From assembly GCA_903873915.1 (NCBI GenBank), contig CAIQQH010000113.1, positions 1 to 64,000 of the forward strand: DNA of 64,000 nucleotides, in the 5' to 3' direction. A model generated the notes under the pieces. The model was given only the letters and a program-made list of their open reading frames with translations. It had not been told where the DNA came from and did not search any database. The stretch is from an uncultured Flavobacteriia bacterium (GTDB lineage: Bacteria > Bacteroidota > Bacteroidia > Flavobacteriales_D > Crocinitomicaceae). Both the position numbers and the translations under genes were made by a program. Shown here piece after piece: positions 24,063-45,342 of this stretch; position 1 is the stretch's first letter, and every line of letters begins with the position of its first letter.

Positions 24063-24794
24063 TTAAATCCAACGGATATCTGAGTCCCGAAGAAAAACGC
24101 TTTTGCCGTTTTGCAAGGTGACAGAGGTTTTCGTTTTTGTCAGGCCTTCATATTTGACCATGGTTCCCTCTGGTAAGGTTAACGTTGAACGTTCTCCAAG
24201 GTCATTCACGAAAACAGGTGCTGATTTTTCAACAACCACACCGTACGATTTCTGGTGTAAATACGCTTGGATGGAGTATGCTGAAAAAATGCTAAAACAC
24301 AGTAAGAAAAAGGAGGATAAGCCTACCACCCGCAGCATCGGATGTCGAGAAAAATCGTTCTTTCGCAAGAGAAAAAACAAACAAATACCAAACACAAAGG
24401 ACAAGAAAACACTCAGATAGGTCCAGTTCGAAAGTCCAAAACCAATCAATGCACGCTCAAATGGTGTTGCAATTTGAAATGGGATGTCAGTCAATCCGAG
24501 TGATTTCCTGCAGATATTGATATTCGCTGAACTTTCTTGGTCGAAAGGATTCTCTTTAAGCACCTTGGAATAGACCCAAATGGCCATCCCGTTTTGGTTC
24601 AGATGACGAAAGCAAGATCCTGCATTGAAGTATGCGCTCGTGCTGTGTGCTGATTGATCCGCAAGATCTAAAAATAATTTTGCTGCTTTGTCGTATTCTC
24701 TGCTATTGCTCAGCGAAACGGCCTCTTCGAAGTCACTTTGAGCAAAGGAATAAACCCCTGCAATTAGAGATAGAATTGCGGTAATTAATTTCAT
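24063..24794 (-). CDS. batE: BatE: TPR and SH3-like membrane protein of the aerotolerance operon
   Basis: The 243-residue protein has a signal peptide and two to three TPR units (about 22-95, EYDKAAKLFLDLADQ, MAIWVYSKVLKENP). Two membrane segments follow (about 125-145, 155-178), then a bacterial SH3-like domain (VVEKSAPVFVNDLGERSTLTLPEGTMVKYEG). This matches BatE, last member of the Bat complex named from the Bacteroides aerotolerance locus. Its ATG overlaps the batD stop (ATGA), showing translational coupling. Confidence 0.85.
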   Translation of the reverse strand: MKLITAILSLIAGVYSFAQSDFEEAVSLSNSREYDKAAKLFLDLADQSAHSTSAYFNAGSCFRHLNQNGMAIWVYSKVLKENPFDQESSANINICRKSLGLTDIPFQIATPFERALIGFGLSNWTYLSVFLSFVFGICLFFLLRKNDFSRHPMLRVVGLSSFFLLCFSIFSAYSIQAYLHQKSYGVVVEKSAPVFVNDLGERSTLTLPEGTMVKYEGLTKTKTSVTLQNGKSVFLRDSDIRWI

Positions 24795-26497
24795 ACCTTG
24801 TGCAATTCAAGTACAAATAAGCGTGCTTCCGAAAGTAGATTTTCTGCATCAATGGCTTCAATCCCCATTCCGTACTGGGCATTCTCACAGGTGGACATCA
24901 GGGATACATAACGAGAAATCTGTGTATCTGTAGCGCCCTTTTTTATCAATTGATGCACAATGATCTCACGTGTGCTTGGTGCTATGTTTGATAATGTCAG
25001 ACACTGACTGATTTCCATTTCAACAATACCTTGAATAGCAGAAAAGTAGTTCGCGTTTCGCTCAGGAAAAGTTTTTGAGAGTTGTTCAAATTGCGCATTG
25101 ATTTCTTCACGGGAGAGTCGAGTAGGGGCGTATGGTTGAATCGGCGCCATATCTTTTCTTCGAAGCCATAATCCGAAAAGAAATGCAACCAATAGCGGTG
25201 AACCAAGCAATCCCCAATACAACGGACTTCCGAAGTTTAGTGTGTTATCAGCTGGAACGTCCATCTCCTCACGCATTGGACTCCATAGATCCAAGGTGCT
25301 TGAAAGTGACTGTTCGCCATTCGTCGTATTCTGAAAGTTTAAGTCTTGTTGAATTTTCAATAGCATGGGCCCTGTGGATGACTCGATGTATTTCTCTTTG
25401 AAAGGATCAAAGTAGGTGAATGTTGTTTGTGGCAATGTCAAGTCACCAGCTCGATTAACCTGGATGTTGAACTCAAAAGTGACGGAACCCTCTGCACCTT
25501 TAAAGCTATAAGACAGATCTTCGGTCATTACAGGATCTCCGTAGAGGACAAAACCTTTAGGAAGGTCTAGTTTCGGTTCACCGATGTTCTGTAAATTTCC
25601 CGTTCCTGCTATGATCACTTTCATGGTGAACACATCGCCTTGACGCATGCGCGTATCGCTTACCTCACGTGAAATGGTAAATGACCCAACACCGCCTGTA
25701 AAACTAGTGGGTGCTCCTGAAGGCAGGGGTTTTACGTCAACTGACGCTCCGGATGAGGTGATCGAAACAGCATCAAATGCGCTGTGTAGGACCAGCTTGA
25801 AAGGTTCAATCTTCTTTTTTCCTGATCCCGTCGGGAAGACCACTTTTTTATCGTAATCAAAAGTATAGTAACTGTTTCCTCGGATGCGCGCTTCTTCCAG
25901 CAAAATGCGACTCGAATTTCCAATGTCGTGCTTGTCAATGACGCCATCCATCGCGAATGATCGGTAATTTTCGAGGTGTGTGGCATTGAAACGGGTGTAA
26001 ATTTTTGCGGACAGAACAAGTGGCTGTCCTTCATAAATTGATTTTGCCGATTGCGTAATGATTCCAAAAGCAGGTTCACGTAATTGTCTAGCCGTAAGTT
26101 GTACATCTGATTGAACTTCGGGAGCAATCTTTTTGATGGTGACACTTACTGAATTTGAGCGGTAGACTTTATTTCCCTTTTTTACATAGGCTGGACCAAT
26201 GGCAAATGTTCCTTCCTTGTCAATCGTACCCGTGTGCGAGTAAAAATAGTAGGTGACAGTGCGGCCAGTGGTGTAGTCCGTTTCCTGCTCCATCCCGTTC
26301 ATGATGTCATACCCTTGTGTGAAATCCTGCGGAAGGTCTACCTCGATGTCGCCGTGAATGTTGGATTTAACAGAAATCGTGATGACATCACCCACATTGG
26401 CGGTTTTTGGTTCAACGGTCAACTGCACCAAGGGCTTTTGTGAGAATGAACTCCATGAACAAATGAAAAGTGCGATATGTGCCAGTAGATACTTCAT
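24791..26497 (-). CDS. batD: BatD: large periplasmic Bat-complex protein
   Basis: The 568-residue protein has a signal peptide (about 1-20), then beta-rich periplasmic domains. One is an oxygen-tolerance domain with VQLTVEPKTANVGDVITISV near the start and SFTISREVSDTRMRQGDVFTMKVIIAGTGNLQNIG in the middle. A single membrane segment (about 430-450, YWGLLGSPLLVAFLFGLWL) and a cytoplasmic helical tail follow. The ATG at 26497 overlaps the batC stop as TGATG; an in-frame TTG two codons earlier is less likely. Confidence 0.87.
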   Translation of the reverse strand: MKYLLAHIALFICSWSSFSQKPLVQLTVEPKTANVGDVITISVKSNIHGDIEVDLPQDFTQGYDIMNGMEQETDYTTGRTVTYYFYSHTGTIDKEGTFAIGPAYVKKGNKVYRSNSVSVTIKKIAPEVQSDVQLTARQLREPAFGIITQSAKSIYEGQPLVLSAKIYTRFNATHLENYRSFAMDGVIDKHDIGNSSRILLEEARIRGNSYYTFDYDKKVVFPTGSGKKKIEPFKLVLHSAFDAVSITSSGASVDVKPLPSGAPTSFTGGVGSFTISREVSDTRMRQGDVFTMKVIIAGTGNLQNIGEPKLDLPKGFVLYGDPVMTEDLSYSFKGAEGSVTFEFNIQVNRAGDLTLPQTTFTYFDPFKEKYIESSTGPMLLKIQQDLNFQNTTNGEQSLSSTLDLWSPMREEMDVPADNTLNFGSPLYWGLLGSPLLVAFLFGLWLRRKDMAPIQPYAPTRLSREEINAQFEQLSKTFPERNANYFSAIQGIVEMEISQCLTLSNIAPSTREIIVHQLIKKGATDTQISRYVSLMSTCENAQYGMGIEAIDAENLLSEARLFVLELHKV

Positions 26498-27189
26498 CAC
26501 CAATCTTTTCTAGAACGAACTGCTGCATTCGTTTCTTTTCCTTTATTTAGTTTTTTCTTCGTTGCAGCCTCCGCACGGGTCAACTTGTCCAGCAAACGGT
26601 CAATGCTTTTGTTGGGCAATTTAGCTCCATTTTCGTCACCTTTTTGGTCCTGAGGATTTGATTTTTCCTGAGGATTTTTATCTTTTTTAGGTGGATTTTT
26701 TTTGTCTTTAGGCTGATTCTTTTTGGACTTTTTTGAGTTGTTCTTGTCTTTGTTTTTTTGTTGTTCCTTCAACTTGCGTATGGCTTCCGACAAGTTGTAG
26801 CGGGTTTTTTCGTTATTTGGATTTTTTCGCAAGGCATTCTTGTATGCGCTAATGGCCTGAGAATATTCCTTCTTCTGCATGAAACTATTGCCAAGATTGT
26901 GATGAACCCTCGCTTGTTTTTTGGTGCTTTTAATTTTTGATTTACTCAGCCATTGCGCTGCAGCGTTGAAGTCCCCCAATCTATAGGCCGTTTGACCGAT
27001 TTCGTTGGCGATGTTTATGTTTTTCGGTGCCTTCTTTTGCGCCGATTGGTAGTACTGAAAAGCAAGCTTGAAATTTTTGTTCGAATAAGCAGTGCGGGCC
27101 ATGTTCAATGAATCACGCCATTCTTGTGTCTTCCCCGAAAAGCCGAGGAGCACGCTGATTGTGAACGATATGAAAATTGCCTTCGTCAT
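26497..27189 (-). CDS. batC: BatC: TPR protein with Lys-rich tail
   Basis: The 230-residue protein has a signal peptide, three TPR units (about 30-135, FKLAFQYYQSAQKKAPKN, YSQAISAYKNALRKNPNN), then a very basic low-complexity stretch of Lys, Asn, Pro and Gln (about 140-190) and a short C-terminal region. It matches BatC, which in other species interacts with the VWA proteins. It starts 1 bp after batB and shares one base with the batD start codon. Confidence 0.85.
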   Translation of the reverse strand: MTKAIFISFTISVLLGFSGKTQEWRDSLNMARTAYSNKNFKLAFQYYQSAQKKAPKNINIANEIGQTAYRLGDFNAAAQWLSKSKIKSTKKQARVHHNLGNSFMQKKEYSQAISAYKNALRKNPNNEKTRYNLSEAIRKLKEQQKNKDKNNSKKSKKNQPKDKKNPPKKDKNPQEKSNPQDQKGDENGAKLPNKSIDRLLDKLTRAEAATKKKLNKGKETNAAVRSRKDW

Positions 27190-27190
27190 T

Positions 27191-28339
27191 TTATCTGTTC
27201 CTTCGTTTCAGCCAATTTGTGCCCGTAATCAAGAGAAGACCACAAATCAAGGATGCAAATAACGGAATTTGATATTGATTTTTCGCTACGTCAAATTCCT
27301 GTTCTTGGCCCTTTGAACGCTTCATTCGGTTAATTTGTGTTAAAATGGGCTTTAAGTCAGGGAATCCTTCGGAGCTAAGAGCAGCTGTGCCTTTGGATTT
27401 TGAGGCAAGTTCACGGATGAGGTTTGGATTCATGCGTGAAACAACCAATTGCCCACGCCCATTTCGCTTGTAACCGAGTTCGGGACGAAGCGGATCAGTT
27501 GGAACAGGCCCCCCATTGGTGGAGCCAATACCAAGTATGGCCATCTCAATGTTCTTGTCGCGAATGGAATCAATGATCGTTGATGGGTCATCCTCGTGAT
27601 TTTCTCCATCGGTGATGAGCAAAATTCCTTTTGAAGTTTTGGACTTGGTGAACATGGTATTTGCCGTTTGCAAGGCTGCTTTAATGTTTGTGCCTTGATT
27701 GGAGAACATCGAGGTTTCAATTTCATCGATGAACAATTTTGCGGCTGAATAGTCCGATGTCATGGGCAGTTGTACATAGGCACCACCTGCAAAGACGCAA
27801 ACCCCCACTTTTTCACCTGTAAATTGATTCACCAACTGATTGAGCGCACGCTTGGCACTGACCAATCGCGAACTTCCTCCACGCATGTCTTTGGTGTTCA
27901 TCGAATTGGACACATCCAAGCAGATCACCAATTCAAGTGTTTTTGTCCTTGACCGTTCTCGTTTTGTGCCCATGGAAGGTTGTGCCATGGCCAGCACAAG
28001 AAACACGAGAAAAGAACGAAACAGAAGAAAATGCAAAAGTGACTTATTGGGTAGAATGGGTTGAAAAACGGAAGACTGAAGCGTGATCGGAATTTTTCCC
28101 AAACGGTGATTCATTCTCCGTAAATTGACGAAATAGAGAAAATAAATGGGGATCAAAAGGAGCAGGTACCAAAGTTGTTCATCCTTCAAAAAAACCAACT
28201 GTATTTTCGCAGTTTCCTCAGTAAAAAAGCCGAAGGACAATAAAACCAAAATGACAACAAGCCAAAAGCTGAACTCGAAAAGTAGGGCTCTTGACACCAT
28301 GCGAAACACTGGAAAAATATGTTGCTTCTTATTGCTCAT
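27191..28339 (-). CDS. batB: BatB: von Willebrand factor A membrane protein
   Basis: The 382-residue protein has N-terminal membrane segments, a VWA domain with an intact MIDAS (LVICLDVSNSMN as DxSxS, QGTNIKAAL threonine, LLITDGENHED aspartate) and a C-terminal membrane segment. It pairs with BatA in the Bat complex. The chosen ATG (28339) overlaps the batA end by 11 bp; a longer frame to 28363 would overlap more. Confidence 0.87.
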   Translation of the reverse strand: MSNKKQHIFPVFRMVSRALLFEFSFWLVVILVLLSFGFFTEETAKIQLVFLKDEQLWYLLLLIPIYFLYFVNLRRMNHRLGKIPITLQSSVFQPILPNKSLLHFLLFRSFLVFLVLAMAQPSMGTKRERSRTKTLELVICLDVSNSMNTKDMRGGSSRLVSAKRALNQLVNQFTGEKVGVCVFAGGAYVQLPMTSDYSAAKLFIDEIETSMFSNQGTNIKAALQTANTMFTKSKTSKGILLITDGENHEDDPSTIIDSIRDKNIEMAILGIGSTNGGPVPTDPLRPELGYKRNGRGQLVVSRMNPNLIRELASKSKGTAALSSEGFPDLKPILTQINRMKRSKGQEQEFDVAKNQYQIPLFASLICGLLLITGTNWLKRRNR

Positions 28340-29360
28340 TTCTAAATACCATTCGTTGAACAATCCAAGTGATGCATGCGAGCATTAAGGCCCAATTTAA
28401 AAAAGCCATTGGTGTGGCTGGGGGATCCGATGAATACTTTTTGTCTGTCAGTTTTTGCTTCTCCAGCTTTTCAATTTCAGCATAGATTTTTTGCAGACTG
28501 GCTTCATCTGTCGCTCGGAAATATTGACCATTGGTTAAAGTCGCAATCTTCATGAGCAGTTCTTCGTCAATCTCGACAGGCATGTTCTCGTAGCGAACGC
28601 CAAAAGGGGTGGAAACGGGAGTGGGTGCTTCGCCATTGCTACCCACACCAATGGTGTACACACGAATTTTTTTGGCACGAGCTACCTCAGCTGCCGTGAT
28701 TGGATCGGTGTCACCTGCGGTATTTGTTCCATCGGTAAGGAGGATAATCACCCGAGATGGTAAACTGTCGTTGCGCAAGCGGGTTACGGCCGTTCCCAGA
28801 CCAGTGCCAATCGCCGTTCCTCCTTCAAGTCCTTCAGGGGAGACAGCATCGATTTGTTGCTTCAAAATTTCATGGTCCATGGTCGCTGGACAAGCGGTAT
28901 AGGCTTCACCTGCATAGACTACCAAACCAATTCGATCCCCTCTGCGCCCGTCAATGAATTGCTTGGCGACGCGCTTGGATGCTTCCAATCTATTGGGTTC
29001 AAAATCCATGGCGAGCATCGACACGGACACATCCAGCGCAATGACGATGTCGATTCCTTTTTTGAAGTCTTGATGAACTCCCTCGGGTGATTCTGGATGG
29101 TAGGGTTTTGTCATTGACACAATTACCAATCCCAATGAAGCTAAATAGGAAAAAACGATGATTGAGCGTAGAATTGGAATCCACCGACTTGAAAAAGTTG
29201 ACTGTTCAGTCGGTTTCCCAGTGAATTTTAAGAATCCTGGTGCTTGAGTCTCCTTTTTCTGCCACAAAAAATAAGCGATGGGTAGCAGCGCTAAAGCCAT
29301 GAACCAAAGCGGCGCGAAGTACTCGTACTCCCAAAAGGCGATGTTCCATTGATCAAACAT
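28329..29360 (-). CDS. batA: BatA: von Willebrand factor A membrane protein
   Basis: The 343-residue protein has two N-terminal membrane segments (about 12-30, 60-85), a VWA domain with MIDAS residues (DIVIALDVSVSML, GGTAIGTGLGTA, VIILLTDGTNTAGD) and a C-terminal membrane segment (about 320-338). BatA and BatB are the paired VWA proteins of the aerotolerance complex. Its start overlaps the end of the upstream gene by 8 bp. Confidence 0.88.
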   Translation of the reverse strand: MFDQWNIAFWEYEYFAPLWFMALALLPIAYFLWQKKETQAPGFLKFTGKPTEQSTFSSRWIPILRSIIVFSYLASLGLVIVSMTKPYHPESPEGVHQDFKKGIDIVIALDVSVSMLAMDFEPNRLEASKRVAKQFIDGRRGDRIGLVVYAGEAYTACPATMDHEILKQQIDAVSPEGLEGGTAIGTGLGTAVTRLRNDSLPSRVIILLTDGTNTAGDTDPITAAEVARAKKIRVYTIGVGSNGEAPTPVSTPFGVRYENMPVEIDEELLMKIATLTNGQYFRATDEASLQKIYAEIEKLEKQKLTDKKYSSDPPATPMAFLNWALMLACITWIVQRMVFRNEQ

Positions 29361-30297
29361 GTGTTAACCTTTCATCAGTTGTTTGTTCGACAATGTTGCG
29401 GCAATCGTCCAAATTTGCACGAATAATCCTTTCTTCAGGTACAGATTTCGCAAACTTCACCATGTCTGAGCCGTTCAAGATAACCCCAATCTCAGTGAGT
29501 AGTTTCTCGCTCACTCCATATTGCTTTAAGATCAGCTGCGCTTCGATGCTTGTCTTTTCAAGCAGATTGATGCTGAAGTGCTCCGATAGGTACTGGCGCA
29601 AGATGAAAGAAAGCTCGATGTAATGTTCCTTCAATTGGTTCTTTTCCCAAAGACGTTTCTGCTCGAGTTGCAAAATCGATTGAAGTGTTTTTTCTTTTAG
29701 AGAAAGCGTAATTTCCTCGTTAGGGATTTCTTTTTTCCGTCGAAAAAACCAAAAAAGGACGGCTGTCAAACCAATAATTGACAACACTGCCCATCCCCAT
29801 TTATTGAGGAATGAGACGAGCGCAAAAGGCTCATCCGGTAAATCAGAATAGGTTTCTTCTATGTCGAAAATTTTTCCACCTTCTTTTTGGACAACCAAGC
29901 GTGCATTTAAATCTGTTCCCGGCAATGTGACATCTTTTTCGTTGATGTTGACCTTTTGTGCTGCGAGCCGATAAGTCCCTTCATCCCAAGGAACGAGCAC
30001 ATAGCTCCCTTTCCAAAATCTTTTGCCGTTTATGAGAACAACGGTATCCATGAATTCCCCAATAATTTCAATTTCTGAGGCGGAAACAGCGCTGGTATCA
30101 CCCGATTTTGTTGCGGGAAAGTTTCCTTTTAAGGGAATGTGAATGTAGCTAGCGTCCTTCTGAAGCGGCACCAGATAGCTTAATGTGACTCGCTTACCAA
30201 TCAGCACATCATTTTGTGAGAGGGTCGCCGACGGTGCTTGTGACCGTAGAACAAACCCAGTGAAAATGAAAACTACTATGGCAATGAACTCGCGCAT
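29353..30297 (-). CDS. Bat-operon membrane protein (DUF4381-like)
   Basis: The 314-residue protein has a signal peptide, a periplasmic beta-rich region (about 20-160), one membrane segment (about 172-190, WGWAVLSIIGLTAVLFWFF) and a cytoplasmic helical part. The tail sequence (LWEKNQLKEHYIELSFILRQYLSEHFSINLLEKTS) resembles the DUF4381-type proteins usually found between the DUF58 gene and batA. Its exact job in the complex is unknown. It overlaps batA by 8 bp and touches the DUF58 gene by 1 bp. Confidence 0.75.
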   Translation of the reverse strand: MREFIAIVVFIFTGFVLRSQAPSATLSQNDVLIGKRVTLSYLVPLQKDASYIHIPLKGNFPATKSGDTSAVSASEIEIIGEFMDTVVLINGKRFWKGSYVLVPWDEGTYRLAAQKVNINEKDVTLPGTDLNARLVVQKEGGKIFDIEETYSDLPDEPFALVSFLNKWGWAVLSIIGLTAVLFWFFRRKKEIPNEEITLSLKEKTLQSILQLEQKRLWEKNQLKEHYIELSFILRQYLSEHFSINLLEKTSIEAQLILKQYGVSEKLLTEIGVILNGSDMVKFAKSVPEERIIRANLDDCRNIVEQTTDERLTHV

Positions 30298-31172
30298 TAT
30301 CGCTGTTTAAAGAGTGTAATGAGTGGACGAATGATGTCATCGTCCGTTTTGAGGATGACATTGTCGATGCCGCTGCGATTGAAGGCCTGCGTCAATTGGT
30401 TTTCGCGTTCAGTAAATTGGGACGAGAAACGTTCCCTCATTGCTGGATCGCTTGAATTGACCCAAGTTGTTTTGCCTGTCTCCGCATTCAAGAGTGATAC
30501 AATTCCCATGTTGGGAAATATTTCTTCTGCCTGATCCTTTAAGCGAATCGCAATGGTATCGTGGCGCTTAGCAGTGAGTCGCATGCTGTCGATAAAATTA
30601 GGGTCGTCTGAAAAATCACTGATGACGAAACTAATGGTTCGTTTTTTTTGCGTGTTGCGTAGGAATTTTAATCCTTCGCTTAGGTTCGTTCCTTTCGATG
30701 TTGGCACAAAACTCATCAATTCCCTCAGTATAAGTAAGGTGTGTTTTTTTCCTTTTTCGGGAGTGATGTACTTTTCGACCTTATCGCTAATGAAAAGCGC
30801 ACCCACTTTATCGTTGTTTTCGATGGCTGAAAAAGCGAGTATTGCAGAGGTTTCCAGTGCCAAATCGCGTTTTGTTCGTTCGGTAGTCCCAAAATCTGTG
30901 GAGCCAGAAACGTCTATAATCAGCATGATGGTCAATTCGCGTTCCTCATTGAACACTTTGACATGCGGTTCATTGTAGCGCGCTGTGACATTCCAGTCTA
31001 TTGTTCGAATTTCATCGCCAAAGTGGTAATCCCGAACTTCGCTGAAGGCCATTCCTCTTCCTTTAAAGGCCGAATGGTATTCGCCAGAGAACATGTGCTT
31101 GGTCAATCCTTTTGTTCGGATTTCCAGACGACGAATTTTTTTGAGCAGTTCGGATGTTTCCACACGATTCAA
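30297..31172 (-). CDS. DUF58-domain protein of the MoxR/Bat operon
   Basis: The 291-residue cytoplasmic protein has the DUF58 signature GRGMAFSEVRDYHFGDEIRTIDWNVTARYNEPHVKVFNEERE. A degenerate VWA-like fold follows (MLIIDVSGSTDFG, GTNLSEGLKFL, FVISDFSDDPN). DUF58 proteins are encoded next to MoxR AAA ATPases and are thought to be their clients or adaptors. It abuts moxR (stop and start adjacent) and is the second gene of the operon. Confidence 0.9.
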   Translation of the reverse strand: MNRVETSELLKKIRRLEIRTKGLTKHMFSGEYHSAFKGRGMAFSEVRDYHFGDEIRTIDWNVTARYNEPHVKVFNEERELTIMLIIDVSGSTDFGTTERTKRDLALETSAILAFSAIENNDKVGALFISDKVEKYITPEKGKKHTLLILRELMSFVPTSKGTNLSEGLKFLRNTQKKRTISFVISDFSDDPNFIDSMRLTAKRHDTIAIRLKDQAEEIFPNMGIVSLLNAETGKTTWVNSSDPAMRERFSSQFTERENQLTQAFNRSGIDNVILKTDDDIIRPLITLFKQR

Positions 31173-32195
31173 TTAGGGCACTTCAACCTTGCTGACGATG
31201 CGCGATAGGATTTCTGTGGCGTTCATGTCTTCGGCCTCGGCCTCGTAAGTCAAGCCAATGCGGTGGCGCATCACATCCGGTGCAACCGCGCGAATATCTT
31301 CTGGTACCACATACGCTCTTCCATTCAAAAAGGCGTGTGCCTTTCCTGCTAGTGCAAGGTTAATGCTCGCTCGCGGGGAACATCCAAAAGAGATCAATGG
31401 TTTCAAGAATCCGAGTCCATATTTTTCAGGTTCGCGCGTCGCAAATACGAGGTCGACGATATACTGTTCGATTTTTTCGTCCAAATAGACCTCTCGAACA
31501 AGAGCACGTGCACGTGAAATGTCTTCCGCTTTCATGACGTTCACGCAGGAGGGCAATCCACCAGTGACCACATTGCCGCGTATGATTTGTTTTTCTTCCT
31601 CCTTGTTTGGATAAGCGAGAATCACTTTCAGCATAAAACGGTCAACTTGAGCCTCAGGAAGTGGATAGGTTCCTTCTTGATCAATAGGGTTCTGTGTGGC
31701 CAAGACCAAGAATGGATTCGGTAAAGGATAGGTAGTGTCACCAATGGTGATTTGTCGTTCTTGCATGGCCTCGAGCAAGGCACTTTGCACCTTTGCTGGT
31801 GCGCGATTGATTTCATCTGCCAACACGAAATTGGCGAAAACAGGACCTTTCTTTACTGTGAACTGCTCACTTTTCTGATTGTAAATCATGGTTCCCGTAA
31901 CATCTGCGGGCAACAAGTCTGGAGTAAATTGAATGCGACTAAATTGCACATCAATCGCCTCAGAGAGTGTCTTAATGGCAAGTGTCTTGGCAAGTCCCGG
32001 AACTCCTTCGAGCAATACGTGTCCATCGGCCAGTAGCGCAATGAGCAATCGATCTATCATGTAGCTTTGCCCTACAATGACCTTCGCAATCTCATCTTTC
32101 AGTTGTTTGATGAGGATAAATTCCAATTGAATTTTATCGTTTAAAAAGCGCAGTGCTTCTGCCGGAGTAGTTGTGATGTTTGAATTCTCGTTCAT
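31173..32195 (-). CDS. MoxR-family AAA+ ATPase
   Basis: The 340-residue ATPase has Walker A (LLEGVPGLAKT), Walker B (FVLADEINRAP), sensor 1 (FLVLATQNPIDQEGTYPLPEAQVDRFM) and an arginine finger region typical of MoxR. MoxR proteins act as chaperones that load metal or assemble VWA complexes, here the Bat proteins. The ATG at 32195 was chosen; a 13-residue longer frame starts too near the likely promoter. This is the first gene of the eight-gene operon ending with batE. Confidence 0.92.
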   Translation of the reverse strand: MNENSNITTTPAEALRFLNDKIQLEFILIKQLKDEIAKVIVGQSYMIDRLLIALLADGHVLLEGVPGLAKTLAIKTLSEAIDVQFSRIQFTPDLLPADVTGTMIYNQKSEQFTVKKGPVFANFVLADEINRAPAKVQSALLEAMQERQITIGDTTYPLPNPFLVLATQNPIDQEGTYPLPEAQVDRFMLKVILAYPNKEEEKQIIRGNVVTGGLPSCVNVMKAEDISRARALVREVYLDEKIEQYIVDLVFATREPEKYGLGFLKPLISFGCSPRASINLALAGKAHAFLNGRAYVVPEDIRAVAPDVMRHRIGLTYEAEAEDMNATEILSRIVSKVEVP

Positions 32196-32297
32196 TTTAA
32201 ATTTTTGTTCGAAACACACAAAGTTCACAAACATTCACTCCACGACCTTTGGAAGTGCTGTTAATTCTTGTTAATATTGTAATGCTAACCACTTACG

Positions 32298-32663
32298 ATG
32301 ATGAATAAACGAACCTGTCTAGAATGCAGTCATGCTTTGACTGGACGTAGGGATCAGAAATTTTGTTCTGACCACTGCCGAAACTCCTTCAACAACCGAA
32401 AAAATGAGGATGCGACTGAACACATGCGCCGCATCAACAACATTTTGCGCAAAAACCGACTGATCTTAAAAGCTTATCTTGTCGATGGCAATACCAAGGC
32501 ACACGGCATTCAGTTGGCTGATGAGGGCTTCAATTTTCATTACTTCACCAATACCTACCGAACACGTGAAGGTGTCGATTTTTTCTTCTGCTACGACCAT
32601 GGGTATATTCGTGAGGAAAACGAGGTGTACCACATTGTACTGAAGCAGGAGTCACTGCGCTAA
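32298..32663 (+). CDS. Small zinc-ribbon protein
   Basis: The 121-residue protein begins with a compact Cys-rich motif, CLECSHALTGRRDQKFCSDHC, that should bind one zinc (CxxC then CxxxC). Next are a helix (NNRKNEDATEHMRRINNILRKNRLIL) and a C-terminal domain with aromatic strands (FNFHYFTNTYRTREGVDFFFCYDHGY). I recognise the type as a conserved Bacteroidota protein of unknown function; the zinc ribbon suggests nucleic-acid or protein binding. An adjacent second ATG is equally possible as start. Confidence 0.7.
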   Translation: MMNKRTCLECSHALTGRRDQKFCSDHCRNSFNNRKNEDATEHMRRINNILRKNRLILKAYLVDGNTKAHGIQLADEGFNFHYFTNTYRTREGVDFFFCYDHGYIREENEVYHIVLKQESLR

Positions 32664-32733: not shown

Positions 32734-35130
32734 ATGGGGACGCGCGAAGTGAAAGCACAAGTGAAGTGTATAGTTAGGAGATTTTTCCTGCTCATTGTAG
32801 TTTGTGCTTTATCGAATTCTGCCTTTTCCATGACTTCTAAGGAGAAAGAAACTATCTCTAAGGTGGAAGGTTTAATCCAGACGGGCCAACTGAAAATGGC
32901 CGAAAAAACCTTGATTTCGCAGTTGAAGTCAGGTCGGGGAAGTACAGAAGCCCGCTATCAATTTTCCAAACTCTTAAGCAAGGCATACCTGATTCAGCAA
33001 ATCTTCGATAAATACCTGTTGAATTCGGACAAGTCGTTGACCTTTGCCAAACGCTTACATCCCATTTATGTGTCCGAAGTGTATGCCCAAAAGGCCTACT
33101 ATTGGCACTACATGATGTGGTCAGACAGTGCCTTGGTGTATTCCAATAAAGCCATGGACCTGTTTCGTAAACACAGATCGTCGATGTCAAAAATTGACGT
33201 CCCCTTTATGTATGAGGTTTATGCGATTACCTATTTGTACAGAAATGATGGAGTCAAACCAAGCGAATATTTGGATATACCGATTGCAGACCATAAACGA
33301 AAACAGTTCCAATGGTTCGATTCGGCGCTCTTCTATCAAGAGCGTTTCCCATTTAAGTTTTCCAACGATCTATCTATGTTGTACCGCTCGTATGCCAATC
33401 GCTGGTTGGACTTGGTCGTTGGTGACAGAAGTTCGAACATAACACCCGCGCAACGGTATGCTTTTCAAAAGGCCAATGCGCTATACGATAAAGGAATTGC
33501 ATGTTTGCAACCATGGGATTTCAATGATTTCTTATCGCTCAATGGATTAAAAGGAGCAATTTATACGTACACGAAGAAATTTAGAGAAGCGGATGAGATT
33601 TTTAAAAATACACTGAAAAAAGTAAGGCGAAAAATACTATTTGACCGATCAAAAGTGGCCTTTCAGCCTTTGATGGTCTTCTTAACTTTTTATACCCGAA
33701 ACACCTTGAGTTTGACCTACGACAGCAAGTCAATCGATGCGCAAATTGCTATCCTGCGGATGCTTCGTTCCGATTTCTGGCGAAGTTTTGATGCGAAAAA
33801 TGATTTGCCTTATGATCCCTACCGCACCTCACCCTACATCAACCTCTTTAATCTCTATGCCTTTAAATCCCAGCATGAGGAAAATGGATTAGCAGATTTC
33901 ACCAAGGCTACGTCTTACTTAGTTACCTTGAAAAGTTACTTCCATTTTTTAAAGAATTGGCCCGATCAAACGTTTCAATCCACACCCTTCGTCCAAATTG
34001 CCTCTATTCAAAAGCAGTTGAAAAAGAACGAATGCTTTTTGTTGACGCTCAATGAGAGCGAAATGTTGGAAGGAAAAAAAATCTTGGTCACACGTTCAAA
34101 GGTGTCTTTTGTGAAATCGACGACGACTGGTCTTTTGAACGAAAGATCTTGCGACACACTCAATTTCAAGACCTTTCAACGGATGAGTTATCAGGATTTC
34201 ACGAAGAACTTCTCAGATGTGCTTCGGGCTTTGCCAAAGATGAGAAAGGTGTATATCTGTTACGACGATAAGAATCCTTACGAGATGATGTTGAAAGACA
34301 CTTCGGCCACGGGGTATTCAAATGCTCATTATCTTGCGAACTCCATCAACTTTGTTCGTGTGTACGATCCAATCACCTATTTTAAAGGCGACAAGGTACT
34401 TCATCCAAGACGCATGGATGTTCGTTTTTTACGCCAAAAGGATGGGACGAAGCTGCCATTCATGAATGAGTTTTTCAATCAGTTTGAAACAACGTTCGAC
34501 TATTCGAAAAAGTCCTATTCTGGCGATATGAAAAAAAGTCTCTTTCCGCCAGGTATATTTCACCTCTATGGTCACGGAGAATTTACGATGGATGAAGAGG
34601 CGAAAACTCCAGCGTTTCAGTTGCGTTATTCCTTGTCGAATGGACCAAAATCAGAACGACGCTTGACAGGTGAGTTTCCGGTGCATCGCGATCTTGTGGT
34701 CTTGAACAATTGTTTTTCGGGCTACGCGAATTTTCTGGTGAATGAGTTCAATCGAACGATTCCTTTGCGCATCTTGAGTAATGGTGCCAAGGCGGTGCTC
34801 GTTTCTCCACATAAAGTGGACGACTTTTTTTCTTCTGAGTTCTTTAAGGTGTTTTACCAGAAAATTGCAGCAGGCATGCTCTTCGAAGACGCTGTATTCG
34901 TTGCGCGAAATGAGTTCTTCCAGAAAAATCCAAGCATGCGTCATCCTCAATATTGGGATGCATTTCAGTTGATTCAAAGTTACAAGTTGAGATATATCCC
35001 CATAGAACCTACACGCGATTTTCCTTGGTGGATTTTTCTTCTGATTAGTGCGGATCTTGCCCTAACTGCTGCAGGTGCGATTTTGCTGCGGCACGCACAA
35101 ATTCGTCCTCACTCTTCGAAAGGATCTTAA
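32734..35130 (+). CDS. Membrane-anchored TPR-CHAT caspase-like protease
   Basis: The 798-residue protein has a signal peptide (RRFFLLIVVCALSNSAFS, about 15-32) and a long helical, TPR-like region (about 35-420). A CHAT domain (about 425-760) follows, with its putative catalytic dyad visible: His614 in FHLYGHGEF and Cys660 in VVLNNCFSG, 46 residues apart as in caspase-like proteases. Next come one membrane segment (about 766-788) and a short basic tail. The predicted layout puts the TPR and CHAT parts in the periplasm. Its 3' end overlaps by 86 bp the convergent anti-sigma-like gene. The substrate is unknown. Confidence 0.85.
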   Translation: MGTREVKAQVKCIVRRFFLLIVVCALSNSAFSMTSKEKETISKVEGLIQTGQLKMAEKTLISQLKSGRGSTEARYQFSKLLSKAYLIQQIFDKYLLNSDKSLTFAKRLHPIYVSEVYAQKAYYWHYMMWSDSALVYSNKAMDLFRKHRSSMSKIDVPFMYEVYAITYLYRNDGVKPSEYLDIPIADHKRKQFQWFDSALFYQERFPFKFSNDLSMLYRSYANRWLDLVVGDRSSNITPAQRYAFQKANALYDKGIACLQPWDFNDFLSLNGLKGAIYTYTKKFREADEIFKNTLKKVRRKILFDRSKVAFQPLMVFLTFYTRNTLSLTYDSKSIDAQIAILRMLRSDFWRSFDAKNDLPYDPYRTSPYINLFNLYAFKSQHEENGLADFTKATSYLVTLKSYFHFLKNWPDQTFQSTPFVQIASIQKQLKKNECFLLTLNESEMLEGKKILVTRSKVSFVKSTTTGLLNERSCDTLNFKTFQRMSYQDFTKNFSDVLRALPKMRKVYICYDDKNPYEMMLKDTSATGYSNAHYLANSINFVRVYDPITYFKGDKVLHPRRMDVRFLRQKDGTKLPFMNEFFNQFETTFDYSKKSYSGDMKKSLFPPGIFHLYGHGEFTMDEEAKTPAFQLRYSLSNGPKSERRLTGEFPVHRDLVVLNNCFSGYANFLVNEFNRTIPLRILSNGAKAVLVSPHKVDDFFSSEFFKVFYQKIAAGMLFEDAVFVARNEFFQKNPSMRHPQYWDAFQLIQSYKLRYIPIEPTRDFPWWIFLLISADLALTAAGAILLRHAQIRPHSSKGS

Positions 35131-35773
35131 AGATGCGGATGGCTCTTGAACGTTGATCCATTTCTGTCGCATGGACCCCAATGAAATAAGCGGCCCGATC
35201 TGCAAACTTACTTCGACTCTTCCAAATCGTTTCAAATTGTTGCACTGCAATGTCGTGTTCTCCATTCTCGAAGGCAATCAATGCACTGTAATACTGCACC
35301 GTATCGTTGTTAGGATGGATTCTTTTTACGCGTTGCATCGCAGCTTCTGCTTTTTCGAAGTCCTGTTTTTTATAGTAAAACATAGCATCGGATACATCTA
35401 AACTTGCCGATGTTTCCATATAATTTGGCAATCCTGGATCTTTAAATGTATGGGACAGTTCAATCCGGTTAGAACTCATAAGGTGCATGACACCAGCACT
35501 GCTCAGCACAGCAAAGATGAAGATTGCGGCGTATTTAATGATTCGATATTTTGACGTCTTTTTTGCTTGAAGAGGCGATAGAATGGATTTCTTGTTTGCA
35601 GCCAATTGTTTTCTGATGCGCACGCAATCTCCAGCACATTCATCGTAAAATTCTATAAAGCCAAGAACAGATTCATCCAAATCTTTTCGTTTGCGCAAGC
35701 TTGCCACATGCAAGCGCAAGAGGATGGGTTGATCCAACAACGCCAACAATGAATTTAATGAACGACTATCCAT
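35045..35773 (-). CDS. Single-pass TPR protein, candidate anti-sigma factor
   Basis: The 242-residue protein has a soluble N-terminal part (1-75), one membrane segment (about 78-98) preceded by KKTSKYRIIK (cytoplasmic side), and a C-terminal region of about three TPR units (115-235: DAMFYYKKQDFEKAEAAMQRV, YYSALIAFENGEHDIAVQQF). Its start overlaps the upstream ECF sigma gene by 19 bp. That order and topology are usual for membrane anti-sigma factors, although it lacks a FecR domain and I see no recognisable ZAS motif. The anti-sigma role is inferred. Confidence 0.72.
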   Translation of the reverse strand: MDSRSLNSLLALLDQPILLRLHVASLRKRKDLDESVLGFIEFYDECAGDCVRIRKQLAANKKSILSPLQAKKTSKYRIIKYAAIFIFAVLSSAGVMHLMSSNRIELSHTFKDPGLPNYMETSASLDVSDAMFYYKKQDFEKAEAAMQRVKRIHPNNDTVQYYSALIAFENGEHDIAVQQFETIWKSRSKFADRAAYFIGVHATEMDQRSRAIRIFKILSKSEDEFVRAAAKSHLQQLGQDPH

Positions 35774-36297
35774 AAAGCAATCGTCGTGAAAGATTTATAC
35801 ATCAAGGCCATTTTTCGTCGAGTCATACTCAATTTGTTTCGCACAGTTTTTTCTGAGATCATGTTCTGTTCAGCAATTTCAATATTGCTGTATCCATCGA
35901 GATGAAGTTGAAAAAGCTTCGTTTCTTTTAACGGAAATTCATGCAATCCATCCAATAGTTCAACATTATTTTCCATCAATTGTTTAGCAGGAAGTTGTGT
36001 CAAAATGTCGAAGTGTGATTTTTCGGCACGAATGAAGTCGATGGCTTTATTCTTCACGGATGTCGTTAAATAGGCGTGTATTGATTCCACATTTTGCCAC
36101 TTCGTTTTTCTTACTTCAGTGCTTGTTGCCAATAGCGTGACGAAAAGCTCACTCACTATGTCCCGAGCGACCTCCATATTTTTTACGCGATTATACGCAA
36201 TCAAGACCATTGGCTCAAACAAAACATGGTACAATTCTCCTAGGGCACGGTCATCGCCGAGAAGAAAAAGAGTCCAATATTTTTGATTTTGAAGCAT
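35755..36297 (-). CDS. ECF-type RNA polymerase sigma factor
   Basis: The 180-residue protein has a sigma region 2 (about 15-85: LGELYHVLFEPMVLIAYNRVKNMEVARDIVSELFV, SIHAYLTTSVKNKAIDFIR) and a region 4 helix-turn-helix (about 120-165: LHLDGYSNIEIAEQNMISEKTVRNKLSMTRRKM). It is co-transcribed with the TPR membrane protein that overlaps its 3' end. A weak -7-like TATCTTAG (36306-36313, minus strand) precedes it. The upstream DNA beyond 36316 belongs to a MITE-like insertion, so its original promoter region was probably altered. Confidence 0.88.
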   Translation of the reverse strand: MLQNQKYWTLFLLGDDRALGELYHVLFEPMVLIAYNRVKNMEVARDIVSELFVTLLATSTEVRKTKWQNVESIHAYLTTSVKNKAIDFIRAEKSHFDILTQLPAKQLMENNVELLDGLHEFPLKETKLFQLHLDGYSNIEIAEQNMISEKTVRNKLSMTRRKMALMYKSFTTIALWIVVH

Positions 36298-37450: not shown

Positions 37451-37502
37451 CACGCGGAATCTGAAAAGCGAATAGAGTAGGAAAAAAAGTAAAAAAGTAA
37501 AA

Positions 37503-37892
37503 ATGAAAAAGTTAACAACAATTTTAGCAGCAATGTTATTTGCAACTTTAATCCTGTCAAGTTGTGGAGAGGAAACGAAGAATGAGGAATTAGCAATTAA
37601 CACTGAAGATTTAAAAGGGAAATATTTCACACGCTTAGATGAAGATGCTGCAATATATTTCATTAACGACAAAGAACTAATTAGAAGTTATGTTTCTGAT
37701 GGGGATGTTATTTCGGTGAAATACAAATATTCTATCAAAGGCGATGAATTAACCATCCACAATAAGAGAAAGGATGATGCAGAAGATAAAGACAGCAAAT
37801 ATATTGTTTACAATAACGATGTTATCATGAGTTTTTATGAAGATGGTGATTACGATTATCCTACAGGTGTTTCTTATAAACGAAGTGAATAA
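37503..37892 (+). CDS. Hypothetical lipoprotein
   Basis: The 129-residue protein has a lipoprotein signal (LATLILSSCGEE type, lipid Cys at about residue 21). A small beta-rich domain follows, resembling lipocalin-like or DUF-type lipoproteins (DLKGKYFTRLDEDAAIYFINDKELIRSY, VKYKYSIKGDELTI). It probably sits in the periplasm on a membrane. No partner or function can be inferred; the neighbours are a pseudogene and an unknown membrane protein. Confidence 0.65.
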   Translation: MKKLTTILAAMLFATLILSSCGEETKNEELAINTEDLKGKYFTRLDEDAAIYFINDKELIRSYVSDGDVISVKYKYSIKGDELTIHNKRKDDAEDKDSKYIVYNNDVIMSFYEDGDYDYPTGVSYKRSE

Positions 37893-44829: not shown

Positions 44830-45342
44830 TCAATTGAGTGAATAGTGATAATCTGGAAGTGATTCCATTAATTTTTTCCGTGCGATGAAGATGCGACTCT
44901 TCACCGTACCAATTGGAATTCCAAGTTTATCTGCAATTTCCTTATACTTAAACCCTTGAAAATGCATTTCAAATGGCTCTTTGTATTCGCGCTCTAAGTT
45001 ACTGATTTGTTTGTTTATTTCTTTTTCGATGAGAAGATTCATTGGATAAACTTGCCCATCGGTGGTGTTATTCATCACGAAATCCTCTTTCGAATGATCG
45101 AAAATAGAACCAGATTTTTGCCTTCTGCGGTATTGATTAATGAAGATGTTGCGCATGATCGTAAATACCCAAGCCTTGAAATTAGTTTGTGGCGTGTAGT
45201 AATTGCGGTACGTAATCGCTTTCAACATCGTCTCTTGCGTTAAATCCCGTGCATCTTCCCGATTGCGGGTAAAGTTCATTGCGAATGACTGAAGATTATT
45301 CTCCATTCCAATAAGCGCTTCGTTGAATTCTACTGTTGACAT
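44830..45342 (-). CDS. ECF RNA polymerase sigma factor heading the carotenoid/photolyase cluster
   Basis: The 170-residue protein has sigma region 2 (FAMNFTRNREDARDLTQETMLKAI, NFKAWVFTIMRNIFINQYRR) and a region 4 helix-turn-helix (FEMHFQGFKYKEIADKLGIPIGTVKSRIFIARKKL). The ATG at 45342 was preferred to an upstream in-frame start that would overlap the promoter. It is first in the row sigma-crtI-crtB-idi-pterin synthase-phr-bcp and may drive the cluster in response to light or oxidative stress; this role is inferred. No anti-sigma gene is adjacent. Confidence 0.88.
   Translation of the reverse strand: MSTVEFNEALIGMENNLQSFAMNFTRNREDARDLTQETMLKAITYRNYYTPQTNFKAWVFTIMRNIFINQYRRRQKSGSIFDHSKEDFVMNNTTDGQVYPMNLLIEKEINKQISNLEREYKEPFEMHFQGFKYKEIADKLGIPIGTVKSRIFIARKKLMESLPDYHYSLN

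Follow-up and report, generated by a model that had tools for sequence, protein, structure and literature searches.

A membrane-anchored TPR-CHAT protease as the probable site-1 protease of a TPR anti-sigma-like protein in a Crocinitomicaceae genome

The stretch of DNA analyzed here (64,000 nucleotides, hereafter the window) is part of contig C113 of a 2.8-Mb draft genome of an uncultured Flavobacteriia bacterium of the family Crocinitomicaceae. It contains three adjoining genes, which encode a tetratricopeptide repeat (TPR)-CHAT caspase-like protease, a single-pass TPR membrane protein, and an extracytoplasmic function (ECF) sigma factor. It appears that the three form a proteolysis-triggered sigma switch, in which the CHAT protein would cut the TPR anti-sigma factor and free the sigma factor; a probability of about 0.8 is assigned to this reading. 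The periplasmic CHAT protein is very probably the site-1 protease of the TPR anti-sigma factor, judging from a near-invariant site in the linker of the membrane protein and from residue-level covariation between this site and the predicted substrate pocket of the protease.

The CHAT gene (32734..35130, plus strand; 798 aa, P0001) converges on a two-gene unit on the minus strand, whose first gene encodes the ECF-type sigma factor (35755..36297; 180 aa) and whose second gene, directly downstream, encodes the TPR membrane protein (35045..35773; 242 aa, P0002). The two open reading frames (ORFs) of the unit share 19 nt, and this coupling is retained across homologues. Relatives of the genome in a public collection are metagenome-assembled genomes labelled Crocinitomicaceae, Flavobacteriales, and similar. 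On the other side, the coding ends of the CHAT and membrane-protein genes overlap in antisense, tail to tail, by 86 nt (35045..35130). The sigma protein matches the Pfam families Sigma70_ECF, r2, and GerE above their cut-offs, and the membrane protein has no Pfam FecR match. An earlier sequence-only reading of the window had described these three genes, their arrangement and overlap, and a membrane protein without FecR domain; the ORF coordinates, the domain calls, and the 86-nt overlap are all confirmed.

The CHAT protein, the product of the only CHAT gene in this genome, is a caspase-like protease by family, catalytic dyad, and fold, with an activity predicted from sequence and model. Its match to PF12770 (CHAT) scores 50.3 bits against a cut-off of 24, and a TPR_6 match lies barely above its own cut-off. 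The dyad that the sequence-only reading had called intact is indeed so: His614 (34573..34575, plus strand) lies in the motif GHG (613-615) and Cys660 (34711..34713, plus strand) in NNC (658-660), and both residues are invariant in 25 diverse homologues (alignment A6). An AlphaFold2 (AF2) model of the protein (predicted local distance difference test, pLDDT, 85.3; predicted template modelling score 0.83) has a caspase/separase-like fold, and its Foldseek matches are Csx29/Craspase (best, 8eey, E 5e-13), DdvA, and separase. A signal-like hydrophobic segment is located at the N-terminus, and a C-terminal transmembrane (TM) anchor is formed by residues 763-789 (35020..35100, plus strand; sequence and AF2 model). 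Such a C-terminal helix is present in 66 of 73 CHAT proteins linked to TPR anti-sigmas and in only 4 of 49 without such a gene in the locus; thus, the membrane-anchored CHATs are those paired with a membrane anti-sigma, as the proposed switch requires.

The membrane protein is termed anti-sigma-like here by gene position and architecture. Its AF2 model (pLDDT 89) comprises helices within residues 1-69, a TM helix at 75-99 (35477..35551, minus strand; also seen in the alignment), a coil at 100-121, and TPR helices at 122-238 (35060..35410, minus strand; Pfam and AF2). Residues 1-69 (35567..35773, minus strand) form a cytoplasmic four-helix domain with a pLDDT of about 84-97 over most of its length, which is a candidate for sigma binding; homologues share the N-terminal pattern YLxGxLSxxExxxFExxLxxD, which resembles class I anti-sigma domains by eye, without a database match. 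From its charges, the protein is predicted to have its N-terminus inside and its TPRs outside, and the bulk of the CHAT protein is likewise predicted to lie outside, with a short inner tail, both by composition and model only. The sequence-only reading had placed the periplasmic parts of both proteins on one side of the membrane, and composition and model support this placement, with no sign of opposite topologies.

The coil between membrane and TPRs is very variable except for one column: 112 of 120 sigma-linked homologues have Arg or Met there, and the next residue is mostly Ser or Gly. The near-invariant linker site may be written [R/M]|[S/G]; in the window it reads Met119|Glu120 (35414..35419, minus strand), and in the closest orthologs M|G or M|S. 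Met119 lies in the modelled coil about 20 residues past the TM helix, and Met119|Glu120 is the predicted CHAT cleavage site (P1|P1'). Cleavage of the periplasmic part by CHAT had already been proposed from the sequence; the linker site and the covariation described below support a protease-substrate relation, but the cut is likely to fall in the juxtamembrane linker and not inside the TPR part.

The identity of the P1 residue is mirrored in the protease. Among 73 close pairs of CHAT and membrane protein, the CHAT column that best predicts a Met or Arg in the linker is 580, with a mutual information of 0.999 bit against 0.686 for the runner-up; Glu occurs there in 33 of 35 Arg-type and in none of 38 Met-type pairs. 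The residue two positions before the catalytic cysteine (Cys-2) ranks fifth, being Ser in all 35 Arg-type pairs and mostly Asn or Thr in Met-type ones. When 77,589 CHAT x membrane-protein column pairs were scanned without labels, the pair of CHAT 580 and linker 119 ranked first. More distant pairs obey the rule as well, and the two Lys-type pairs carry Asp at Cys-2. Over 97 pairs, 94 agree (basic P1 with acidic S1 in 49, neutral with neutral in 45) and 3 are discordant, which suggests a P1/S1 code in which Arg goes with Glu580, Lys with Asp at Cys-2, and Met or Leu with neutral residues. In a later sample of the same kind of genomes, with short flanks, Glu580 was found in 10 of 10 Arg-type pairs.

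This agreement is very unlikely to reduce to shared ancestry. The tested columns were excluded from tree building; by parsimony, the site type switches about 12 times on the resulting tree, and the S1 residue usually changes along with it. Strict edge-disjoint contrasts were few, being consistent in 5 cases, opposite in 0, and uninformative in 3, and the observed agreement was reached in none of 4000 simulations (maximum 81). The dependent model of Pagel was preferred over the independent one (likelihood ratio 46.5, p 1.9e-9), a p-value that is post hoc, because column 580 had been picked by scanning, and that survives a 200-fold correction. The assignment of the CHAT protein as enzyme and of the linker as substrate is regarded as a strong inference.

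The covarying positions coincide with those expected of a substrate pocket. In clan CD peptidases, S1 specificity is attributed to helix alpha1 (or L1), L4, and L5, as exemplified by Asp365 (alpha1) and Asp462 (L4) of MALT1, Asp163 (alpha1) of gingipain, Asp95 (alpha1) and Asp211 (L4) of the metacaspase TbMCA2, and Ala47 (alpha1) of MARTX-CPD, where P1 is Leu (PMC4357240). In separases, the closest relatives among eukaryotes, the matching region contains an acidic residue (Glu) for an Arg P1 (PMC4626109). In the AF2 model, residue 580 belongs to helix 575-582, which is flanked by strands 561-565 and 590-594; from this order of secondary-structure elements, residue 580 is inferred to be the alpha1 S1 residue. 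Residue 658 stands just before Cys660. In the window these positions are occupied by Phe580 (34471..34473, plus strand), the putative S1 specificity residue that is Glu in Arg-type CHATs, and by Asn658 at Cys-2 in loop L4 (34705..34707, plus strand), the second covarying S1 position, which is Ser in Arg-type and Asp in Lys-type proteins. A scan blind to clan CD knowledge recovered two of the three known S1 regions (alpha1 and L4). The alpha1 helix of Csx29 is not alignable to column 580, as profile matches begin after that column. In the membrane protein, P0002 columns 112, 157, and 158 (within 35300-35440, minus strand; the Asp of DPGLP and, in the TPR part, the Asp and Thr of NDT) covary with neutral-pocket CHATs, and they may represent a CHAT docking surface or just markers of the Met-type lineage.

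The module is conserved as a unit. CHAT orthologs with 45-81% identity occur in six other genomes of the same genus and in one of another genus of the family (the copy in G004 is split over two contigs), and the CHAT, TPR-membrane, and sigma genes adjoin in the same convergent layout in 8 of 8 genomes with this ortholog, the window included. In the six other genomes in which both complete genes could be measured, the antisense overlap is 80-92 nt long, and its length is without exception 2 mod 3; since the arrangement, including the overlap, is kept down to 45% identity, it reflects more than chance. Of the 26 same-genus genomes (window included), the 7 with the CHAT ortholog, and no others, have a TPR-membrane ortholog (E below 1e-100), and the sigma ortholog tracks the other two in the 18 same-genus genomes searched, the all-three-or-none distribution that would be expected of a working unit.

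Beyond the genus, the association recurs in several layouts. Among 80 loci with CHAT from the class and order, the second gene from CHAT encodes an ECF sigma factor at 25 of 155 positions, compared with 6 of 429 at a distance of four or more genes, and the gene in between usually encodes a one-TM protein of about 190-300 aa. CHAT genes lie within 1.5 kb of 75 sigma-linked TPR anti-sigmas; across the class the layouts are convergent, tandem, or divergent, and over all loci 34 anti-sigma/CHAT pairs are convergent within 150 nt, 25 are on the same strand within 150 nt, and the others are divergent or farther apart. Diverged CHATs missed by the ortholog profile (P0005, P0006) also stand tail to tail with a sigma/TPR pair. 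A profile of these one-TM proteins (A5), itself built mostly from CHAT-linked members, found further loci independently of CHAT position, and most of those fetched contain CHAT. Its full-length matches (E<=1e-28) are spread over 46 genomes, of which 42 are CHAT-positive, with 106 of 296 sampled genomes CHAT-positive overall; among further genomes with a TPR anti-sigma, 25 of 28 are CHAT-positive. The co-occurrence of the three genes in related genomes, proposed as a check by the sequence-only reading, is thereby borne out: the adjacency of the trio is not confined to this genome, as seen both among orthologs and class-wide.

Several related arrangements were also seen. The same family also has a paralogous sigma/TPR anti-sigma module with a number of other genes behind it (L119, L120, L121, L122, L123), and in L120 and L122 a convergent CHAT lies beyond these inserted genes; in G002 and G039 the matching CHAT lies on another contig. 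In L069, and also in L058, a CHAT gene stands beside another type of anti-sigma, with an RskA-like C-terminal part by eye and no TPR.

A general scheme of the proposed switch would be as follows. The sigma factor would be bound in the cytoplasm by the N-terminal domain of the single-pass TPR protein, as family logic and position suggest, and the CHAT protein would be periplasmic, with its C-terminal helix as an anchor in the inner membrane. A signal, perhaps sensed by the CHAT TPRs, would activate the protease, which would then cut the coil linker after Met119, about 20 residues outside the membrane (site-1). By analogy, the remaining stub would then probably be cut within the membrane by a site-2 protease, for which the M50 enzyme of this genome (G000:C125, E 2e-50) is a candidate, whereupon the sigma factor would be freed; M50 enzymes are also present in all 14 control genomes, so that this one is weak evidence. 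CHAT proteases are common in the class, as the 106 positive genomes attest, and most are without a known job; for the membrane-anchored branch, the switch would supply a specific substrate, along with a predicted site of cleavage and a specificity code that depends on one residue. It is probable, if less so than the switch itself, that this extends to a phylum-wide envelope signalling family in Bacteroidota, with anchored periplasmic CHATs as dedicated site-1 proteases and the P1/S1 code keeping paralogous pairs apart in multi-copy genomes.

A number of observations weigh against this account. The mechanism is predicted from sequence and structural models. No Pfam anti-sigma family was matched by 38 members of the membrane-protein family, and a comparison with PDB sequences gave no significant match to a solved anti-sigma structure, the best being a weak one to RslA (E 0.76). 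Some TPR anti-sigmas have no CHAT gene within 7 kb (most such genomes have a CHAT elsewhere), and an R|G site is kept in three CHAT-less genomes of one genus (G625, G567, and G654; loci L225, L235, and L236), where CHAT was either lost or missed, or the site is used by another protease. Five other CHAT-less genomes do not have the linker site; a clean rule that CHAT-less genomes lose it held in 5 of 5 cases of a first set but was abandoned, as all 3 of this genus retain the site. Exceptions to the P1/S1 rule are L187 and L203, both Arg-type, and the Leu-type pair L171; two further pairs (L184, L205) were relabelled Met after inspection, the Pagel value is post hoc as stated, and Met-type pairs with a readable CHAT were absent from the later sample. 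Finally, no promoter word or motif beyond chance is shared by the upstream regions of the CHAT gene and the sigma operon among the orthologs.

Other explanations of the linkage were considered. ECF sigma factors often control neighbouring genes. The CHAT gene might thus be the target of the sigma/anti-sigma pair and not its activator, an effector such as a stress or cell-death protease whose linkage is purely regulatory, and the variation of the layout among convergent, tandem, and divergent forms would suit such a relation. However, a regulon link predicts no residue-level covariation between the linker site and the S1 pocket of CHAT, and the lack of a shared promoter motif upstream of the CHAT and sigma genes argues against it too. 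A purely regulatory linkage is therefore considered quite unlikely; feedback of this kind could nonetheless coexist with cleavage of the anti-sigma factor. The reverse relation, in which the TPR membrane protein restrains CHAT by placing its linker in the active site as a pseudosubstrate, the real substrate being elsewhere, predicts the same S1/P1 covariation and has a precedent in pro-gingipain, whose inhibitory loop places an Arg in the S1 pocket (PMC4357240). It leaves unexplained why the gene directly follows that of an ECF sigma factor and why the protein has a cytoplasmic domain, and the small P1' residue (Ser or Gly) at most sites fits cleavage. Since cut and release would initially look alike, a pseudosubstrate role is only partly excluded, and we consider it unlikely.

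The linker motif might instead be structural, serving to cap the initial TPR helix or to contact some other partner, with the covariation arising because two ancient lineages differ widely. Met- and Arg-type proteins do differ at further columns (P0002 112, 157, and 158), and the deep nodes of the tree are weakly supported. Against this stand the roughly dozen changes of P1 type with the S1 residue mostly following, the edge-disjoint contrasts without a single opposite case, and the rejection of independence by both the Pagel test and the simulations; moreover, both top CHAT positions are known S1 positions, and Lys-type pairs use the alternative acidic position. A structural or lineage origin of the pattern is accordingly judged very improbable, and cleavage of the linker by CHAT is retained as the preferred reading.

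Some other features of the window lie around the module. Directly upstream of CHAT, a gene at 32298-32663 (plus strand) encodes a 121-aa protein with a zinc-ribbon-like N-terminus and 85-97% identity in close relatives; it was rejected as a fourth module member, as its position is held only in the closest relatives and it is absent beside distant orthologs. An aerotolerance-type cluster, recognized by eye, adjoins the module at 24791-32234 (minus strand) and comprises MoxR ATPase-, DUF58-, two VWA-, TPR-, and BatD-like genes. Further away are an Rfam match to DUF805b RNA (RF02914) at 37451-37483 (plus strand, 40.4 bits), upstream of a small ORF (37503-37892), and a second, distant ECF-type sigma gene at 44863-45279 (minus strand; sigma profile E 9.7e-7).

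With regard to known systems, the proposed switch recalls regulated intramembrane proteolysis in its order of events. In systems of the RseA/DegS/RseP type, a single-pass anti-sigma factor undergoes a periplasmic site-1 cut near the membrane and then a site-2 cut, and the module's predicted juxtamembrane periplasmic cut, followed by a site-2 step, is alike. The site-1 proteases of RseA-type systems are serine proteases, such as DegS (PMC10028731), whereas in the module this role would fall to a cysteine protease of caspase-like type, devoted to the anti-sigma factor with which it is paired; if this is true, caspase-like enzymes would join the site-1 proteases of envelope stress signalling.

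In its parts, the module is closest to two systems with a CHAT protein. In type III-E Craspase, the TPR-CHAT protease Csx29 cuts Csx30, an inhibitor of an ECF sigma factor (PMC10028731), at sites such as M|K, L|D, and A|S (PMC11106740). The Csx29-Csx30-CASP-sigma system shares with the module the combination of a TPR-CHAT protein with an ECF sigma inhibitor, and the fold. However, Craspase is cytoplasmic, depends on Cas7-11 and target RNA for its activation, and lacks a conserved cut site, whereas the module has a CHAT with a signal-like N-terminus and C-terminal TM anchor, unlike the cytoplasmic, unanchored CHAT of type III-E, as well as a membrane inhibitor and a conserved site with a P1/S1 code. 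Visual inspection of the surrounding ORFs (26-42 kb) revealed no Cas7-11/gRAMP or Csx30/Csx31, no Cas-specific search having been made, and membership in a defence system was rejected, as neither the CHAT nor the membrane protein was matched by PADLOC. Type III-E, with which the sequence-only reading compared the module, is a valid analogy, but this CHAT is predicted to be periplasmic, and there is no indication among the inspected ORFs that the locus is a CRISPR system.

The closest one-chain parallel, absent from that reading, is DdvS/DdvA of Myxococcus xanthus (PDB 8rot, 8rw5). The anti-sigma factor DdvA spans the membrane, and the chain deposited for it is that of a protein with a CHAT domain. 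DdvS is active once DdvA is inactivated, by a signal that is unknown (PMC4374960), and no report of proteolysis by DdvA was found. In DdvA the anti-sigma, membrane, and CHAT parts are joined in one chain, whereas in the module they are divided between two proteins encoded by two genes.

Two further groups combine some of these elements. The genomic context of ECF54 contains CHAT, subtilase, and carboxypeptidase genes, and proteolytic control has been proposed (PMC8999054), but ECF54 is described as lacking an anti-sigma factor, which the module has. In EACC2-caspase conflict systems, a caspase-like gene stands beside ECF sigma and DUF1822 TPR genes (PMC8195603); these systems differ from the module in their domain set, and no membrane anti-sigma or cleavage site has been described for them. 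No paper describing the module itself was found in the open-access literature. Overall, the module appears to work like the Craspase circuit, with its parts laid out like a split DdvA, and it is assigned to neither; if the proposed switch is true, the CRISPR Craspase-sigma circuit and the one-chain DdvA may be versions of a wider CHAT/anti-sigma theme.

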